This document shows positions 52,356-58,500 of a DNA stretch of 64,000 bases, in pieces. Source of the DNA: Listeria innocua (GTDB lineage: Bacteria > Bacillota > Bacilli > Lactobacillales > Listeriaceae); contig NZ_CP117229.1 of NCBI RefSeq assembly GCF_028596125.1, positions 604,001-668,000 on the forward strand. Direction: 5' to 3'. Position 1 is the first letter of the stretch. Each line of letters begins with the position of its first letter. The notes beneath the pieces were generated by a model that was not told where the DNA came from, made no database searches, and saw nothing but the letters and a program-made list of their open reading frames with translations. The translations under genes and the position numbers were made by a program.

Positions 52356-53237
52356 ATGAATAAAGAAAATCCATTAAACAAATACCATACGGGAAAATTT
52401 GAAAAACAACGGCAAGATTATCCAGGTCTTCAAAGTAAAATGACACCTGTGCCAGATACGGGCGAATCAAGTTATCAAGGTGCGAACAAATTAACCGGAA
52501 AAAAAGCCTTTGTAACAGGGGGCGACTCGGGAATTGGTCGAGCTGCGGTTATTGCCTACGCTAGAGAAGGTGCTGATGTCGCGATAAATTATCATCCGGA
52601 TGAAGAAGTAGATGCACAGGAAGTTAAAGCGATTGTTGAGGAAGCTGGACAGAAATGCGTCTTACTACCAGGTGATTTACGAAAAGAAGGTTTAGCGAAA
52701 GAGTTAGTGAAAAAAGCATATAACGAGTTAGGTGGACTAGATATTCTAGTGCTAAATGCTGGACTACAGCAATATCAATTAGATATTCAAAAACTTCCAG
52801 CTGAACAATTACGTGACACATTTGAAGTGAATGTTTTCTCTGTTGTGTTCGCAATTCAAGAAGCACTTAATTACTTAAAAGCAGGAGCAAGTATCATTTT
52901 AACGTCCTCCATTCAAGGCGTTAAACCAAGCGCTCATCTCGTTGACTATGCAATGACAAAAAGTAGTTTGATTTCATTAACGAAAAGTTTAGCTGCTCAA
53001 CTAGGTGAAAAAGGAATTCGTATTAATGCAATTGCACCAGGTCCAATTTGGACAGCGCTACAAATTTCTGGAGGGCAACCACAAGAAAGTATTCCAGAAT
53101 TTGGTCAAAATCAGCCACTTGGACGAGCAGGTCAACCAGCGGAACTTGCGAGCGCTTATGTGCTGCTAGCATCAGATGAAGCAAGTTATACGACTGGGCA
53201 AGTATACGGAATTACTGGCGGTGCTCCTATTAATTAA
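52356..53237 (+). CDS. short-chain dehydrogenase/reductase, general-stress type
   Basis: 293 residues; AGGAGG (52343-52348) sets the ATG at 52356 (52353 is adjacent). An N-terminal extension (NPLNKYHTGKFEKQRQDYPGLQSKM) typical of YhdF/YhxC general stress SDRs precedes the Rossmann fold KAFVTGGDSGIGRAAVIAYAREGADVAI. The catalytic Ser-Tyr-Lys set lies in ILTSSIQGVKPSAHLVDYAMTKSSL, with LNAG(L) and APGPIWTAL in place. NAD(P)H-dependent oxidoreductase of unknown substrate. Transcribed from the sigma-B promoter with the small membrane peptide and the 58-residue gene. Confidence 0.92.
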   Translation: MNKENPLNKYHTGKFEKQRQDYPGLQSKMTPVPDTGESSYQGANKLTGKKAFVTGGDSGIGRAAVIAYAREGADVAINYHPDEEVDAQEVKAIVEEAGQKCVLLPGDLRKEGLAKELVKKAYNELGGLDILVLNAGLQQYQLDIQKLPAEQLRDTFEVNVFSVVFAIQEALNYLKAGASIILTSSIQGVKPSAHLVDYAMTKSSLISLTKSLAAQLGEKGIRINAIAPGPIWTALQISGGQPQESIPEFGQNQPLGRAGQPAELASAYVLLASDEASYTTGQVYGITGGAPIN

Positions 53238-53254
53238 AAGCGAGGTGAGAGGTC

Positions 53255-53431
53255 GTGCCGTGGACAAAAAATGATTATCCTGATTCGTGGAAAAATCTAA
53301 GAAAGACCGAACGCGAAAAAGCAATTGAAATCGGCAACGCGCTATTAAAAGATGGCTACTCAGAAAGCCGCGCCATCCCAATTGCCACTTCAAAAGCAGA
53401 AGAATGGTATAAAAATCATAAGGAATCGTAA
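53255..53431 (+). CDS. 58-residue conserved protein (DUF2188-like)
   Basis: Short gene starting with GTG at 53255 behind GAGGTGAGAGG. The product (PWTKNDYPDSWKNLRKTERE ... AIPIATSKAEEWYKNH) is a small soluble basic protein, with the layout of ChaB/DUF2188-type stress proteins: P-W-T/N-K-N-D-Y-P at the start and an Arg-Ala-Ile-P-I-A-T-S-K block at the end. It follows the SDR gene by 17 nt and ends before a terminator, so it should be part of the same sigma-B operon. Function unknown. Confidence 0.82.
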   Translation: MPWTKNDYPDSWKNLRKTEREKAIEIGNALLKDGYSESRAIPIATSKAEEWYKNHKES

Positions 53432-53443
53432 TGTTAAACTAAA

Positions 53444-53495
53444 AAAACACTTGAAACGCTAGGCTTTAAGTCTACTGTTTCAAGTGTTTTAATTT
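53444..53495 (+). terminator. intrinsic terminator
   Basis: AAAACACTTGAAAC pairs with GTTTCAAGTGTTTT, followed by AATTTT. Confidence 0.85.
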
Positions 53496-53554
53496 TGATA
53501 AAAGAAGTGTACTATTTAAATTAAGAGAGATGATGACAACGAGGAGGAACTTTT

Positions 53555-54163
53555 ATGAATAAAAGAAGATGGATTTTCAGCACTGTGGTTGCAGCTTTCC
53601 TATTGATTATCGGAGGATATTTAATTTATCAACAGATGAAACCAAAACCGTTCACCGAAGTAGTGGCAGAAGCTAAAATCGACGGTTATGAGAGTGGGGA
53701 TGAACTAGAAAACGCTAGTAATGTCATCGTAACAGGTCAACTAGAAAAGCGCGGAGATTCAATAATAGAGCGAGCTTCAGATGATGCTGTGATAGGTGTA
53801 TCTAGAATGTCCACTTTTAAAATAGCTCAAGTTTTAAAAAATGAAACGAATGACAATTTAGCAAAAGAAATGATAATCCCTGTTTATGAAAATGAAGGTT
53901 ACGATGCCAAAACGAATACGACATACCATATCGCTGGCTATACAAAAATGGAAAAAGAAGAAAAATACCTGTTGTTGTTGCAAAAAGATTCAGAAGATGA
54001 CTATTATGTCCCGACAGCAGTTGTTTTCGGAAAAATAAATCTTGATCCTAATAAAAGAAATAAATTATTTCCTAAAAACAGCGACACAGAAGCAGCGGTC
54101 AATCAAGTACAAGCCGAAGTTTTAAAAAATCTTGAAAATGAAATCGAGCGAGAAGACAAATAA
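53555..54163 (+). CDS. membrane-anchored extracytoplasmic protein, unknown function
   Basis: 202 residues with one N-terminal hydrophobic anchor (WIFSTVVAAFLLIIGGYLIYQQM) and no cysteine lipobox, so it stays tethered with the rest outside. The outer part (FTEVVAEAKIDGYESGDELENASNVIVTGQLEKRGDS ... AGYTKMEKEEKYLLLLQKD) has beta-strand patterns. No family is recognised with confidence. GAGGAGGAA precedes the ATG. It borders the RNA-rich segment to the right. Confidence 0.8.
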   Translation: MNKRRWIFSTVVAAFLLIIGGYLIYQQMKPKPFTEVVAEAKIDGYESGDELENASNVIVTGQLEKRGDSIIERASDDAVIGVSRMSTFKIAQVLKNETNDNLAKEMIIPVYENEGYDAKTNTTYHIAGYTKMEKEEKYLLLLQKDSEDDYYVPTAVVFGKINLDPNKRNKLFPKNSDTEAAVNQVQAEVLKNLENEIEREDK

Positions 54164-54219
54164 TTTTGTTCTGTTGCATTTTAGTTAAATTCGTCATCTA
54201 ATTTTAATACAAAAAAAGG

Positions 54220-54243
54220 GTTTGGATTGGGTGAGATGGGTAT
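54220..54243 (+). promoter_or_regulatory. candidate sigma-B promoter
   Basis: GTTTGG (54220-54225), 12-nt spacer, GGGTAT (54238-54243); GGTTT plus GGGTAT matches the sigma-B consensus. There is no protein gene behind it but there is a terminator 90-120 nt downstream. Confidence 0.6.
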
Positions 54244-54249
54244 TATATA

Positions 54250-54371
54250 ACCATAAGCAATGACAATGCCATTACTTTTTCTCCCTTTTTTGTAGTGGAT
54301 TGTCTTTACTTACCTTAAACTCCCTTTTATACTTTTAGCGGTTGTTAGCAGCCACTAGGAGTATTTTTTTT
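54250..54371 (+). ncRNA. candidate sigma-B-dependent small RNA (Rli33-1-like)
   Basis: Transcript of about 120 nt from the sigma-B promoter to a strong intrinsic terminator: a 15-bp stem (54330-54344 with 54349-54363; one C-A mismatch, four G-U pairs), TTAG loop, then eight T. It contains two unpaired pyrimidine stretches with CUCCC (54291-54295 and 54320-54324), complementary to Shine-Dalgarno sequences. In L. monocytogenes an LhrC-family RNA, Rli33-1, is reported from the corresponding interval and is sigma-B dependent (recalled), so this may be its counterpart. No start codon with ribosome site is seen. Confidence 0.65.
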
Positions 54372-54560
54372 GGAAATATATTTGCTATGTTGAGGGGCAG
54401 AAAAGTGTAGTAGATAAAATCTTCTCAGAATTGAGTGGAATAAAGAACTAAAAGTACATTGAACACGAATAGAAAAACGGAATATTAATCTAAATACTAT
54501 TTACCAAGAATACATGGGACACTTAAGCTTTAAGAATTGCTAACAAATTAATAAGAACTA

Positions 54561-54733
54561 GTAATAAAAACACCTCGGACAAGGGAAAGTTCGAGGTGTT
54601 TTTGCATTTACTAATATTTGTAAATGCCACTGGGAATTCAAGTAAACAAAACATATGGGTGTTTGGGAAATCACCACTTCAAAAATATATCATTGCTTGA
54701 ATCTAATAGGCTGCAATGTAGTATAAATCACAC
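54561..54733 (-). repeat. diverged direct repeat, copy 1
   Basis: About 170 bp resembling 56990-57163. Conserved blocks are the terminator stem, GTGGCATTTA, and the promoter block ATTTATACTACATT (minus strand). The spacer between blocks varies, so selection acts on an RNA rather than on a protein. Confidence 0.8.
54565..54714 (-). ncRNA. LhrC-family-like small RNA, copy 1
   Basis: Minus-strand RNA of about 150 nt. A TATACT -10 (complement of 54720-54725) precedes the estimated start near 54714. It has three UCCC motifs: UUUCCCAAAC, AUUCCCAGUGG, and UUUCCC in the loop of the terminator AACACCTCG...CGAGGTGTTTTTA. An internal hairpin GCATTTAC/GTAAATGC is present. Several UCCC motifs, one in the terminator loop, are the known LhrC architecture; these bind Shine-Dalgarno regions of mRNAs such as lapB, tcsA and oppA in L. 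monocytogenes. No ORF covers it. Ends are estimates. Confidence 0.7.
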
Positions 54734-54955
54734 ACTAAAAGAACCTTAACGGAATCAATAATAAATACGTTTTATTCCAAAATGTACTAGACATAAAATG
54801 TATTTCTGTATTTCTTGCAGTGTATCATTTATAACACTAAATAATAACCAATCATAAATACCATGTTACTATGCGTTTGTGCATAATTCATTACAAAATA
54901 AGTAGGTTCTATTCTACAAGTAAAAGCAAAATAAACTAGAGAGCGAAGGGAAAAG

Positions 54956-55837
54956 ATGAAGAAATGGTTGTTTGTTTTTTTATGTGTTTGTTTTCTTAGC
55001 CAATGTTTAAGCAGAACAGTATTTGCGGAAGAGTCTGATCAAAAGATTGCCTATTTATACCAAAAAGGGATAGCAGAGGGAAAGATAGCGAGTAAACTAT
55101 ATCCTTATGATGCGTTTAAAGAAAATTATGAAACAAACCAGGTTACCTATTCAGCACTGAAAGATGAATTTAATACAAGTGATTCTTATGACGAATGGTT
55201 TTCTGAAAGTTATAATTATGGTGCTTTTCCTGATGGAGAGGGGCATGCGAATTCTGAGTTGAAAATAGAACAACGAAGTACTACTTCTAACGGAAACAGG
55301 TTGAAAGCAGCAATCCAAAAAGGAGACATACTAATAGTTGGTGGTGGAGCCGGGCATGCAGCAATTGCAACAACTGATAATTATATTTTAGAAATGTCTG
55401 GGAGCCAAAATTTTGCAAGTTGGTTCATAGGTGGGATTTCAAATAATAACCACCAATTCACTAAACAAAACTGGATTTTTGGTACATCCAATGAACAAGG
55501 TGCTTCATCTGCTCCACACATTGCGAAATGGATTCAATTATGGCGAATGCCAAACCAAGCGATGGCTAAGCAGTGTGCAGACTATGCAGACGCCAAATTT
55601 TGGAGTAGTACACATAGTTATACTAAAAATCGCCATATTACTTATAGGCTTACTTCTGGAACACTCACAACGGATCCTAATTACTGCTCGAAAATGGTAT
55701 TCCAATCCTTTTACTTTGGAAGCGGATCTGCAAATGTAATACAAGGATTTTCTGCGGCTTTAACAAGTATTCTTCCAAACGCTTTACCTAATCTATTTAC
55801 GAATAATTTTAAACCTTATAAAGTTGGAACCTATTAA
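54956..55837 (+). CDS. secreted permuted papain-fold (YiiX/NlpC-like) protein
   Basis: 293 residues. Signal peptide KKWLFVFLCVCFLSQCLSRTVFA, then a mature protein. GDILIVGGGAGHAAIATTDNYILEMSGS gives His134 and Glu146; the nucleophile is later, NYCSKMVFQSFYF with Cys244. That order (His-Glu before Cys) is the circularly permuted NlpC/P60 layout of YiiX/YaeF-like enzymes, which cleave amide or ester bonds. A role on peptidoglycan or lipids outside the cell is possible. AAGGGA precedes the ATG at 54956. It lies between the two LhrC-like RNAs. Confidence 0.75.
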   Translation: MKKWLFVFLCVCFLSQCLSRTVFAEESDQKIAYLYQKGIAEGKIASKLYPYDAFKENYETNQVTYSALKDEFNTSDSYDEWFSESYNYGAFPDGEGHANSELKIEQRSTTSNGNRLKAAIQKGDILIVGGGAGHAAIATTDNYILEMSGSQNFASWFIGGISNNNHQFTKQNWIFGTSNEQGASSAPHIAKWIQLWRMPNQAMAKQCADYADAKFWSSTHSYTKNRHITYRLTSGTLTTDPNYCSKMVFQSFYFGSGSANVIQGFSAALTSILPNALPNLFTNNFKPYKVGTY

Positions 55838-55872
55838 ATATCATAGGTAAATAATTGGAAAGAGTGATAAAA

Positions 55873-56301
55873 ATGAACAAAAATATAGGAAGAACTACAG
55901 AGTTTTGTTTAGGCTTATGTGGGGGGATATTTGGAATTTTAGCGGCAACTACTATGTTGGGATTTACGATACCAGATATAGGTGATATAGATTTTAGTTA
56001 TTGGTTGTTATCCATTTTATTAACGAGCATATTTTCCATTTCTGGAGTAGTAGGTTCTTTGTTTGTTCGTAAGCACCATCTACTTGGAGGTGTTTTAATG
56101 CTCGGTGCTGCAATCGGTGGAGTACTGTCACAAAATATGTTTTTTATTATGTATTTAGCTTTTCCACTCCTCTTGATTGGTGGATTAGTAGCACTTATTC
56201 GAGGGGGAGAGTTTTTAAAACTATTTAGTATGTGGTGGTTTTATATCGTTTTAGCATTATCTATCTTTGTTCCACTTTTACTTTTCCGGGGATATTACTG
56301 A
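55873..56301 (+). CDS. four-helix small membrane protein (DUF4064-like)
   Basis: 142 residues from the ATG at 55873 (the upstream TTG at 55855 lies before the GGAAAGAG ribosome-like stretch). Four hydrophobic segments: FCLGLCGGIFGILAATTMLGFTI, WLLSILLTSIFSISGVVGSLFV, GGVLMLGAAIGGVLSQNMFFIMYLAFPLLLIGG and WWFYIVLALSIFVPLLLF. The layout resembles DUF4064 but that is not certain. It follows the secreted enzyme gene by 35 nt and precedes another small membrane gene by 19 nt, forming a compact unit. Confidence 0.75.
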   Translation: MNKNIGRTTEFCLGLCGGIFGILAATTMLGFTIPDIGDIDFSYWLLSILLTSIFSISGVVGSLFVRKHHLLGGVLMLGAAIGGVLSQNMFFIMYLAFPLLLIGGLVALIRGGEFLKLFSMWWFYIVLALSIFVPLLLFRGYY

Positions 56302-56320
56302 GAAGTGGAGGAAAGAAAAT

Positions 56321-56692
56321 ATGAATAAAAGATATTATACTGCTCTAATGGTTTTATCGTGTTTTAATATTCTCTGGTTGTTGTCATTTATTTTCGCTAC
56401 AGGTAGGGGGATTGGCATTAAACTAGATGATAATCAATTACCGGGCTATATAATTATTGGTTTATGTTTGTGTATACTTACTTATGCGTATTTTGTAAAT
56501 CGCATACAGCTTCGTAAAATAATGATTGCTAGTTTAGCCTTATTAGACGCTTTGTTTATGTTTCTAGCATGGGAGAACCAAAACATAATTAATTTTAATG
56601 AGGGAATGTTTGTATTTATTATTCCTATCTATTTTTTGTTATTTATATGTATTTTTTGCATAATTGATTTTTATTTAAGTTTAAAGAGGTGA
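56321..56692 (+). CDS. small polytopic membrane protein, unknown function
   Basis: 123 residues from the ATG at 56321 (GGAGGA 8 nt upstream; earlier in-frame codons run inside the previous gene). Four hydrophobic segments: YYTALMVLSCFNILWLLSFIFAT, GYIIIGLCLCILTYAYFV, IMIASLALLDALFMFLAW and FVFIIPIYFLLFICIFCIIDFYL. No family identified. The last gene of the group starting at 54956. An 18-codon open frame starts 5 nt later, see the next entry. Confidence 0.7.
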   Translation: MNKRYYTALMVLSCFNILWLLSFIFATGRGIGIKLDDNQLPGYIIIGLCLCILTYAYFVNRIQLRKIMIASLALLDALFMFLAWENQNIINFNEGMFVFIIPIYFLLFICIFCIIDFYLSLKR

Positions 56693-56699
56693 TTTAAGT

Positions 56700-56807
56700 T
56701 TGAGTAATTTTAACATACTGGGAACATTGATGTTAATAGCTGTTTTAACTTTTTAGTCCTTTTTCCACTCAATAAAAGAATATATGTTTAAAAAAATGTA
56801 CTATTAG
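56700..56807 (+). pseudogene. possible remnant of a small membrane protein gene
   Basis: A TTG at 56700 behind AGAGGTGAT opens SNFNILGTLMLIAVLTF, closed by TAG at 56754-56756. The same frame continues as SFFHSIKEYMFKKMYY to a second stop near 56807. It looks like a one-span membrane protein broken by a stop, but may be a chance reading or a genuine 18-residue peptide. Confidence 0.3.
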
Positions 56808-56989
56808 ATGAAGGCTATTTTTAGTTGTGGAACATGCGATGTTACAGAGGTTAGAGGTACACAGTTGAGGAAATAAATGGGTTTATTATAGCAAGTGAAT
56901 ACTTAAAATATTTTGAAATAAAACAAGTGCTTTTGTTAGTGAGCCTTTTTTATGCAAAAGAAGAAAAGAAAACAACTTAGTAAAAGATA

Positions 56990-57163
56990 GTAATAAAAAC
57001 ACCTCGGACAAGGGAAAGTTCGAGGTGTTCGGCATTTACTGATATTTATAAATGCCACTGGGGATTTTCTAAGTGAACAAAGATATGGATATTTGGGAAA
57101 GCATCCACTTTCAGAATTTATCACAGATAGAGGCGTTTAAATTGTAATGTAGTATAAATCATA
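56990..57163 (-). repeat. diverged direct repeat, copy 2
   Basis: About 170 bp matching 54561-54733: the same terminator stem and loop, the CAGTGGCATTTA region and the TTTATACTACATT promoter block. The region between promoter and first UCCC motif is much diverged. Confidence 0.8.
56993..57145 (-). ncRNA. LhrC-family-like small RNA, copy 2
   Basis: Same plan as the copy at 54565: TATACT -10 (complement of 57151-57156), start estimated near 57145. UCCC motifs lie in UUUCCCAAAUA, AUCCCCAGUGG and in the terminator loop (UUUCCCUUGUC) inside ACACCTCG/CGAGGTGT. The -10 and terminator are more conserved than the body. It flanks the opposite side of the YiiX-like and membrane protein genes. Ends are estimated from promoter and terminator positions. 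Confidence 0.7.
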
Positions 57164-57434
57164 CAATGAAAGACGTTCTTATAAAAACGGCATTCATTTA
57201 TACATACCACTAATTACTTTGAAAGATTAAATTGTATCTATTTTTTAATTAATTTTTAGGAACTACGAGAAGCTTTATAATTTAAAAGCGTTTTATTCGT
57301 GGATTTTTAAGAAATGGATTTTTGGCCATTAGTGAGTTTTAAGACCTGTGTCATTAGTCCTAATTTTGTTTGTGAGTTGAAATGTGTCTATTTTATGAAT
57401 CTTTTAATTTTAACCTTGTGCAAAATACAAGTGG

Positions 57435-57447
57435 CGTATATCCTTAG
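57435..57447 (+). promoter_or_regulatory. conserved CGTATATCCTTAG motif before DUF805 gene 1
   Basis: The same motif (CGTATATTCTTAG, 57990-58002) stands 46-47 nt before the start codon of both DUF805 genes; it probably includes the -10 of their promoters. Confidence 0.45.
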
Positions 57448-57481
57448 TGCTATAACTAAATTTAATTACACAGGGGGAAAT

Positions 57482-57892
57482 ATGGGGTTTTTAGAAGCTT
57501 ATAAGTCATTTTGGAAGAATTATGTGAATTTTAGTGGTCGTGCACCAGGTTCTGCATATTGGTATGTAGTGGTTTGGAACCTGATGATTATTGTACCTCT
57601 TCGTGTTATGGCAGCTATTTTTGGCGCTTCATCAATGATAGATGGGGTTGGCTTTGCTGGAATCGTAGTTATGTTCTTTCTTGTTGGTCTACGGTGGTTG
57701 TACTGGTTGGCTACTATAGTCCCACTAACGAGCCTTATTGTAAGACGACTACATGACACTGGGAAAAGTGGCTATCTTGCTTTCCTTGCTTTAATTCCAG
57801 TCGTTGGATCCATTATTATTATAATATTTATGTGTTTTGAAAGTGATGGACCAAACCAATATGGAGATGTCTATCATAAATCAGAGGTTTAA
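57482..57892 (+). CDS. DUF805 membrane protein, copy 1
   Basis: 136 residues from the ATG at 57482 (AGGGGGA upstream; the long in-frame extension to 57314 has no ribosome site). DUF805 pattern: MGFLEAYKSFWKNYVNFSGRAPGSAYWYV at the start, three to four membrane helices, then the conserved IVRRLHDTGKSGYLAFLALIPVVGSIIIIIFMCFESDGPNQYG. Function of the family unknown; often in stress or phage-shock-like contexts. A close paralog follows 143 bp downstream with related upstream sequence. Confidence 0.88.
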   Translation: MGFLEAYKSFWKNYVNFSGRAPGSAYWYVVVWNLMIIVPLRVMAAIFGASSMIDGVGFAGIVVMFFLVGLRWLYWLATIVPLTSLIVRRLHDTGKSGYLAFLALIPVVGSIIIIIFMCFESDGPNQYGDVYHKSEV

Positions 57893-57989
57893 AAGAAAAA
57901 CGAGCTAAAACTAACACTTAACTTTTTTATAGATTTATATGTGGATTTTATGAATATTTATATGAAAAGTTTATTTAAGTAAGTGCGGA

Positions 57990-58002
57990 CGTATATTCTT
58001 AG
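57990..58002 (+). promoter_or_regulatory. conserved CGTATATTCTTAG motif before DUF805 gene 2
   Basis: Second copy of the motif seen at 57435-57447, at the same distance from the start codon. Confidence 0.45.
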
Positions 58003-58035
58003 AAGAACAGTAAATTTTTATACATAGGAGGAAAT

Positions 58036-58458
58036 ATGGGATTTTTAGAAGCTTATAAATCATTTTGGAAAAATTACGTTAACTTTAGTGGGCGAGCTCC
58101 GCGGTCAGCGTATTGGTATGTGGTAGTTTGGAATGTTATTATTTTTGCAGTATTATACTTTTTAGCTTTTGTTTTTGGCATTTCTATATTTATGGAAAGT
58201 GCTCTTGGGGGAACGGGTATTGCGAGTAGTGGTGGGGCGCTCTTTATGATGGTTCTTATATTGCTATATTTACTAGCAGTATTACTTCCTACAATTAGCC
58301 TGATGGTTCGGCGTTTACATGATTCAGGGAAAAGTGGTTTATACTTATTGCTTGATTTAATTCCGTTTGTTGGTAGCATTATTATGCTTGTCTTTATGTG
58401 TCTTGAAAGTGATGGACCAAACCAATACGGTGATTTAGATAGTGAATTTGATATTTAA
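58036..58458 (+). CDS. DUF805 membrane protein, copy 2
   Basis: 140 residues starting at the ATG at 58036 (TAGGAGGAA upstream). The first 29 residues differ from copy 1 by a single residue (Arg for Gly) and the C-terminal block MVRRLHDSGKSGLYLLLDLIPFVGSIIMLVFMCLESDGPNQYGD is also shared, while the middle membrane region diverged. A tandem duplication including about 90 bp of upstream sequence explains the pair. Ends at a strong bidirectional terminator. Confidence 0.9.
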   Translation: MGFLEAYKSFWKNYVNFSGRAPRSAYWYVVVWNVIIFAVLYFLAFVFGISIFMESALGGTGIASSGGALFMMVLILLYLLAVLLPTISLMVRRLHDSGKSGLYLLLDLIPFVGSIIMLVFMCLESDGPNQYGDLDSEFDI

Positions 58459-58465
58459 ATATTAA

Positions 58466-58500
58466 AAACGAGCTAGAAATTAATTCTAGCTCGTTTTTTT
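58466..58500. terminator. bidirectional terminator
   Basis: ACGAGCTAGAA pairs perfectly with TTCTAGCTCGT, with A and T runs outside; it separates DUF805 copy 2 from the minus-strand mogR unit. Confidence 0.9.

Follow-up and report, generated by a model that had tools for sequence, protein, structure and literature searches.

A candidate C-rich small RNA convergent with Rli33-1 and duplicated around a gene cassette in Listeria innocua

We analyzed a 64,000-nucleotide (nt) window of the 2.89-Mb genome of Listeria innocua (contig NZ_CP117229.1; G000:C2:604001-668000 in our numbering), in which three candidate anti-Shine-Dalgarno small RNAs (sRNAs), one on the plus strand and two on the minus strand, had originally been predicted at a single locus. 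All three are present in the sequence on the strands predicted. The reading that we favor, with confidence that is somewhat better than even, is that the locus combines the known sRNA Rli33-1 with a second, convergent sRNA of the anti-Shine-Dalgarno type on the minus strand, which is duplicated around a gene cassette. The plus-strand part is known, and the minus-strand part is probably a new RNA of a known kind; it occurs twice in the window, as R1 and R2, and its transcription, strand, target pairing, effect, and history are what we infer from the sequence.

The plus-strand RNA follows a sigma-B-like promoter, GTTTGG-N12-GGGTAT (positions 54220 to 54243, plus strand); the consensus for sigma-B promoters is GTTT/GGGTAT. 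The RNA itself, with predicted ends at 54252 and 54370 on the plus strand, has two CUCCC motifs, as originally predicted, and a terminator-like hairpin. The motifs are placed in a hairpin loop (54281 to 54285) and in a single-stranded linker (54320 to 54324), both are unpaired in the fold ensemble, and the fold z score is −5.9. The Rfam model of rli33 (RF01469; gathering score, 46) matches the plus strand of the window at 54269 to 54740 (113.1 bits) and at 56911 to 57133 (116.4 bits). Among 25 genomes of the genus, 17 have an rli33 match at an E value of ≤0.001 and 10 have one over the cutoff, and of 17 genus loci tested, each from a different genome, 15 have a GGGTAT −10 element followed by the CUCCC leader of Rli33-1, those of G004 and G010 being without it. 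With its rli33 match, sigma-B promoter, two UCCC motifs, and own terminator-like hairpin, the plus-strand candidate is the known sigma-B-dependent LhrC-family sRNA Rli33-1 and hence is not new. We also found Rli33-1 in records of three apathogenic species, L. farberi, L. cossartiae, and L. marthii (L029, L030, and L031). Two large blocks common to the window and the L. farberi record are 91 to 94% identical, and the L. cossartiae and L. marthii records differ too. A 2011 review states that L. innocua and other apathogenic Listeria lack rli33-1 (PMC3179153), which is at odds with its presence in these three species. PMC8079631 describes rli33-1 as a sigma-B-dependent member of the LhrC family in the lmo0671-lmo0672 interval, originally detected within a longer Rli33; a sigma-B-dependent promoter is reported for rli33 (PMC8066629), and attenuation is reported for Rli33-1 deletion mutants (PMC8079631, PMC3179153).

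R1 (54562 to 54714) and R2 (56991 to 57145; the copy nearest to the single copies of other Listeria) both lie on the minus strand and are candidate convergent C-rich sRNAs of ~150 nt, a length that is not firm because the 5′ ends are predicted ones. By BLAST they are 80.3% identical over 188 columns (54742 to 54559 against 57173 to 56988), and the block of similarity runs from ~17 nt upstream of a TATACT sequence through the terminator. The expectation of several such RNAs at the locus was right in kind, but the plus-strand RNA is already known and the minus-strand pair is one family in two copies and not two independent RNAs. As originally predicted, each copy has three UCCC motifs, with first bases at 54668, 54635, and 54586 in R1 and at 57098, 57064, and 57015 in R2, and the last of them is in the terminator-like loop (ACUUUCCCUUGU in R1). 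The fold z scores are −4.7 for R1 and −5.1 for R2.

A model of 155 positions, derived from an alignment of seven copies in which the G016 and G017 rows start a few bases late, was searched against the 25 genomes and identified seven strong copies (160.7 to 191.2 bits) in five of them: two in the genome of the window, two in G019, and one each in G016, G017, and G018. R2 scored 189.7 bits, and R1, from which the model was partly built, scored 160.7 bits. Five weak hits in G022, G008, G002 (two), and G003 (28.2 to 30.8 bits) were discarded, as by eye they resemble common terminators or the ends of coding regions and lack the three-motif layout. In the consensus, hairpin A, whose loop carries UCCC, is followed by a linker that has the motif too, a second hairpin free of motifs, and a terminator hairpin whose loop carries UUUCCC; UCCC stands at all three sites (loop A, linker, and terminator loop) in seven of seven copies. 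The mean unpaired probability of these sites across the copies is 0.69 to 1.00 (0.69 to 0.98 for loop A and the linker and 1.00 for the terminator loop), and the corresponding range for Rli33-1, rli22, and the five lhrC RNAs is 0.76 to 1.00. None of the 11 core motif columns varies among the seven copies, whereas 27 of the 114 columns of the structured part and 27 of the 38 leader columns do; the linker enters this count as CCC only, the preceding base being T or C. This conservation exceeds chance modestly (hypergeometric P value of 0.044, or 0.014 among the 58 unpaired columns; 0.15 for R1 versus R2 alone). The terminator stem contains one compensatory change, A-U to U-A on both sides of a pair. 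A coding reading of the short minus-strand open reading frames (ORFs) over R1 and R2 was rejected on inspection, since the frame is not kept between copies.

The edge of the conserved block is a −10-like element that faces the minus strand, TGATTTATACTACATTGCA in R1 (54712 to 54730, minus strand; TATACT at 54725 to 54720) and TGATTTATACTACATTACA in R2 (57143 to 57161, minus strand; TATACT at 57156 to 57151), and it is exact in all seven copies. Beyond these copies, the 19-nt block has only two matches in the 25 genomes, each with 2 mismatches, on which account a shared regulon promoter was rejected. After the terminator hairpin, the minus strand has a U-run that is an unbroken T5 in the R1 and R2 copies and is broken in G016 to G018; the five R2-type copies have no U-run on the plus strand. 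When G-U pairs are tolerated, pairing holds in 192 of 194 ungapped cells on the minus strand and in 172 of 194 when the same pairs are read on the plus strand. The ORFs on the 3′ side that have family or orthologue support are on the opposite strand, and a leader or riboswitch is therefore unlikely. These features bear on an alternative that assigns the blocks, hairpins and G-rich loops included, to the downstream part of a long plus-strand Rli33, the minus-strand reading being an accident of complementarity. Rfam does model rli33 as a 532-nt plus-strand RNA and scores the region on that strand, and the plus strand folds as well. We nevertheless judge this alternative to be unlikely: the missing plus-strand U-run of the R2-type copies, the direction of the −10-like element, and the fit of the G-U changes to the minus strand all speak against it, Rli33-1 comes with its own terminator-like hairpin, and R2, which is 2.6 kb from Rli33-1, cannot for that reason belong to a 532-nt RNA made from the Rli33-1 promoter.

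All seven copies are oriented against Rli33-1. Five of them adjoin it (R1 of the window, R1 of G019, and the copies of G016, G017, and G018), and R2, in the window as in G019, is ~2.5 to 2.6 kb farther away; in G016 to G018, the 532-nt rli33 model matches a region that encloses the minus-strand RNA. The gene order in G016 and G017 is Rli33-1, minus-strand RNA, a 33-residue ORF, DUF805, and MogR, and G018 differs from it in lacking the small ORF. The window and G019 both have, in this order, Rli33-1, R1, a YiiX-like gene, two membrane protein genes, R2, two DUF805 genes, and MogR. The single copies are closer to R2 (89 to 92%) than to R1 (76 to 78%). The comparison of gene order across the window and G016 to G019 identifies R2 as the shared copy; most likely, R2 holds the ancestral place before the DUF805 genes and R1, which stands with the YiiX-like gene and the two membrane protein genes between Rli33-1 and R2, is a diverged copy among the inserted genes, an order of events that the sequences suggest. 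Two copies flanking a cassette would also be expected if the blocks were functionless as RNA, being either the terminator or 3′ region of neighboring plus-strand genes or a repeat from the insertion of the cassette, and the R1 hairpin, which has a plus-strand U-run as well, would suit such a reading. We hold this explanation to be very improbable, given that the cassette-free single copies keep all of the motifs and that conservation extends through the loops and the −10-like block.

In the reading that we favor, the minus-strand RNA would be ~150 nt long and would lie antisense to the annotated 532-nt Rli33 in its downstream part, and by analogy with LhrC4 acting on lapB it would work in trans as an anti-Shine-Dalgarno RNA, its three UCCC sites contacting G-rich ribosome sites and blocking translation. 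Each of these three positions in LhrC4 is able to bind the G-rich ribosome site of lapB, though the linker does so to the smallest extent, and UCCC is described as a characteristic feature of the translation-blocking sRNAs of low-GC bacteria (PMC4132741). Pairing of the minus-strand RNA with neighboring genes is possible. The YiiX-like gene, with AAGGGAAAAG before its ATG, is among the 35 matches to AAGGGAAA near a start codon in the host genome, with a duplex energy rank of just 12 among 67 genes of the window called by script. The genes near the locus have ranks of 1, 2, 12, 23, 25, 26, 30, and 35; rank 1 is a 58-residue ORF at 53255, and rank 2 is the DUF805 gene at 57482 (DUF805a). The second DUF805 gene of G019 is the closer relative of DUF805a. 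A further possibility is joint regulation by the two RNAs as a convergent pair. In L057, L058, and L059, the Rli33-1 and minus-strand RNA genes come within ~15 to 21 nt of each other at their matched ends, and sigma-B-driven read-through past the Rli33-1 terminator would make the 532-nt Rli33, which would carry the exact complement of the minus-strand RNA and sponge it. General stress would in this way turn on one C-rich sRNA while sponging its neighbor; the R2 of the window, beyond the cassette, would escape such read-through in cis. We consider such a pair to be distinctly unlikely.

Several results weigh against a minus-strand anti-Shine-Dalgarno RNA. The significance of the motif conservation is only modest, and a UCCC triple is not rare, with 214 TCCC motifs and 11 consecutive triples within 110 nt on the minus strand of the window. 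The stricter motif TTCCC or TCCCC, with overlapping matches counted, leaves four triples on the minus strand, namely, R1, R2, and two at one spot near 52.2 kb, and one on the plus strand, which is made of overlapping matches. Hairpin A is weakly supported alone (columns 1 to 90; z score of −1.7, with 21 of 300 shuffles as good). The count of pairs by strand is based on a structure that was itself derived for the minus strand, consensus folding is equal on both strands (z scores of −7.5 on the minus strand and −7.4 on the plus strand), and the plus-strand U-run of the R1 hairpin has been mentioned. No −35 element is conserved in the alignment of the copies. The promoter scan had no site at the R1 block and a 9-of-12 site at R2 (57185 to 57158), the TATGAT of which (57163 to 57158) only overlaps the block, and its total of 23 sites compares with 23.4 expected by chance. 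A simple terminator scan of positions 53000 to 58500 found none, that of Rli33-1 included (2.6 were expected by chance). On the side of the targets, AAGGGAAA-N2-12-ATG occurs 35 times in the host genome versus 25 times for the reversed control, with no clear enrichment; the set of genes ranked by duplex energy is small and post hoc, with at least one start placed wrongly by the script. In G018 and G019, the first DUF805 gene of the locus carries AGGAGGAAAU where the window has the better-pairing AGGGGGAAAU, a comparison that covers the first gene only. Target enrichment and duplex energies were accordingly set aside as weak and are not relied on here. Because of the missing conserved −35, the chance-level promoter scan, and the lack of a terminator in the scan, we treat transcription of the minus-strand RNA as inferred. 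The original idea of different promoters stands for the clear sigma-B promoter but not fully for the minus strand, where a conserved −10-like block has no conserved −35. By eye, in the alignment of the copies, the minus-strand promoter resembles neither the lhrC promoters nor the sigma-B site; if real, it may need an activator. According to PMC4132741, there is no known LisR consensus.

The locus had been described as gene-poor, which is loosely true, but the YiiX-like ORF and two membrane protein ORFs fill positions 54956 to 56692 between R1 and R2. The first (54956 to 55837, plus strand) encodes a YiiX/LnsA-like protein and permuted-papain candidate, proteins of the LnsA and YiiX types being permuted papains; it is presumably secreted, as the original prediction had it. 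Its sole NCBIfam match at an E value of ≤0.1 is NF041769, LnsA (E value of 1.5e-7; 31.2 bits against a cutoff of 225), a family of lipoprotein N-acylation, so the match is far under the cutoff; a Pfam search gave no match. Matches to the protein are present in 14 of the 25 genomes, and three stops are reported within the matched stretch of the G019 copy (L034). Small membrane protein 1 (55873 to 56301, plus strand) is DUF4064-like (PF13273; E value of 1.2e-4, under the gathering score), and small membrane protein 2 (56321 to 56692, plus strand) is an ORF with no family at an E value of ≤0.001 and a weak HisKA_7TM hit (E value of 0.12, under the cutoff). Downstream are tandem DUF805 membrane protein genes (57482 to 57892 and 58036 to 58458), the number of which varies between one and two among genomes at this locus. 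The 33-residue ORF is hydrophobic (MSNFNIMGSL...) and has a TTG start with a good ribosome site upstream (L058:1723-1821 and L057:1765-1857); the window keeps a shortened remnant of it at 56700 to 56747. In G016 and G017, this ORF falls within the 3′ part of the stretch that the 532-nt rli33 model matches, and Rfam rli33 may therefore contain a small membrane peptide gene. The mogR gene gave three separate match pieces, as if interrupted, in the L. marthii record (L031:8001-9080) and in G015 (L061:4225-5304).

Rfam gives Rli33 as one 532-nt RNA (RF01469). If an LhrC-like RNA is indeed encoded inside the Rli33 interval on the opposite strand, then data on the long Rli33 and on mutants in which the whole interval is deleted would need to be read again, and the set of LhrC-type C-rich sRNAs of Listeria, in which the LhrC family is counted as seven members (PMC8079631), would grow. 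Rli33-1 and the minus-strand RNA would also be a natural test of the number of UCCC sites that an sRNA needs. Rli33-1 itself differs from the minus-strand RNA in strand, in having two motifs and not three, with a terminator-loop motif only in the latter, and in its sigma-B motif, none being seen by eye in the alignment for the minus-strand RNA. The names rli33-2 and rli33-3 are in print for transcripts of the rli33 locus (PMC8079631, PMC5689173), and one of these may be the minus-strand RNA; the methods of the 2017 study merged overlapping sRNAs regardless of orientation (PMC5689173), so the minus-strand transcript may already be catalogued. None of the nine new antisense RNAs in Table 1 of PMC3911899 is at lmo0671-lmo0672, and the sections on LhrC and rli33 in the literature covered (including PMC5880928, PMC13350326, PMC10794523, PMC3556495, and PMC9736482) describe no minus-strand LhrC-like RNA at this place. 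Rli22 (RF01457; ~C2:30452-30560 in the host genome) is likewise a C-rich sRNA of the LhrC family and differs in its two UCCC motifs, in having no motif in the terminator loop, and in its locus.

A close likeness is that to LhrC1-5 (RF00616), which carry UCCC at the same three sites (PMC4132741) and are multicopy in one genome, with five copies over the cutoff in the host genome. The original suggestion of LhrC-type kinship thus stands for Rli33-1 as a family member and for the UCCC placement of the minus-strand pair, but sequence homology of the pair to LhrC1-5 was not found. The covariance model search proposed along with the suggestion gave background at R1 and R2: the LhrC model had no match there at an E value of ≤10 (150 of 580 initial candidates scored), and among the matches listed at these places in an Rfam search at an E value of ≤1, a listing that leaves out one same-clan overlap, there was no LhrC. 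The search does not discriminate and is a weak test of homology, because the accepted member Rli33-1 itself scores at background (19.1 bits; E value of 3.35); Rli22 scores 26.9 bits. Conversely, with filters off, the minus-strand model had 25 hits at four loci, weakly including the five LhrC copies (10.7 to 21.2 bits; 9.4 to 21.2 bits with rli22). Together with the shared three-site arrangement (PMC4132741) and the adjoining position of Rli33-1, these hits would suit a true diverged LhrC paralogue that has switched strand and gained a hairpin, as opposed to an independent look-alike. Such descent seems highly unlikely, as another hit elsewhere in the same search, at 24.2 bits, outscores all LhrC copies, the LhrC model has no match at an E value of ≤10 at R1 or R2, and the minus-strand RNA is without the ATAAGC 5′ end common to the five LhrC copies and Rli33-1. 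LhrC1-5 are ~110 nt long and have CUCCC, whereas the minus-strand RNA is predicted at ~150 nt, has an extra hairpin (three in all) and another promoter, and has loop motifs that are mostly UUUCCC and a linker motif of AUUCCC or AUCCCC. We therefore regard the minus-strand RNA as LhrC-like in anatomy and not as a member of LhrC: it shares the motif features of LhrC1-5 and departs from them in hairpin number, predicted length, and homology.

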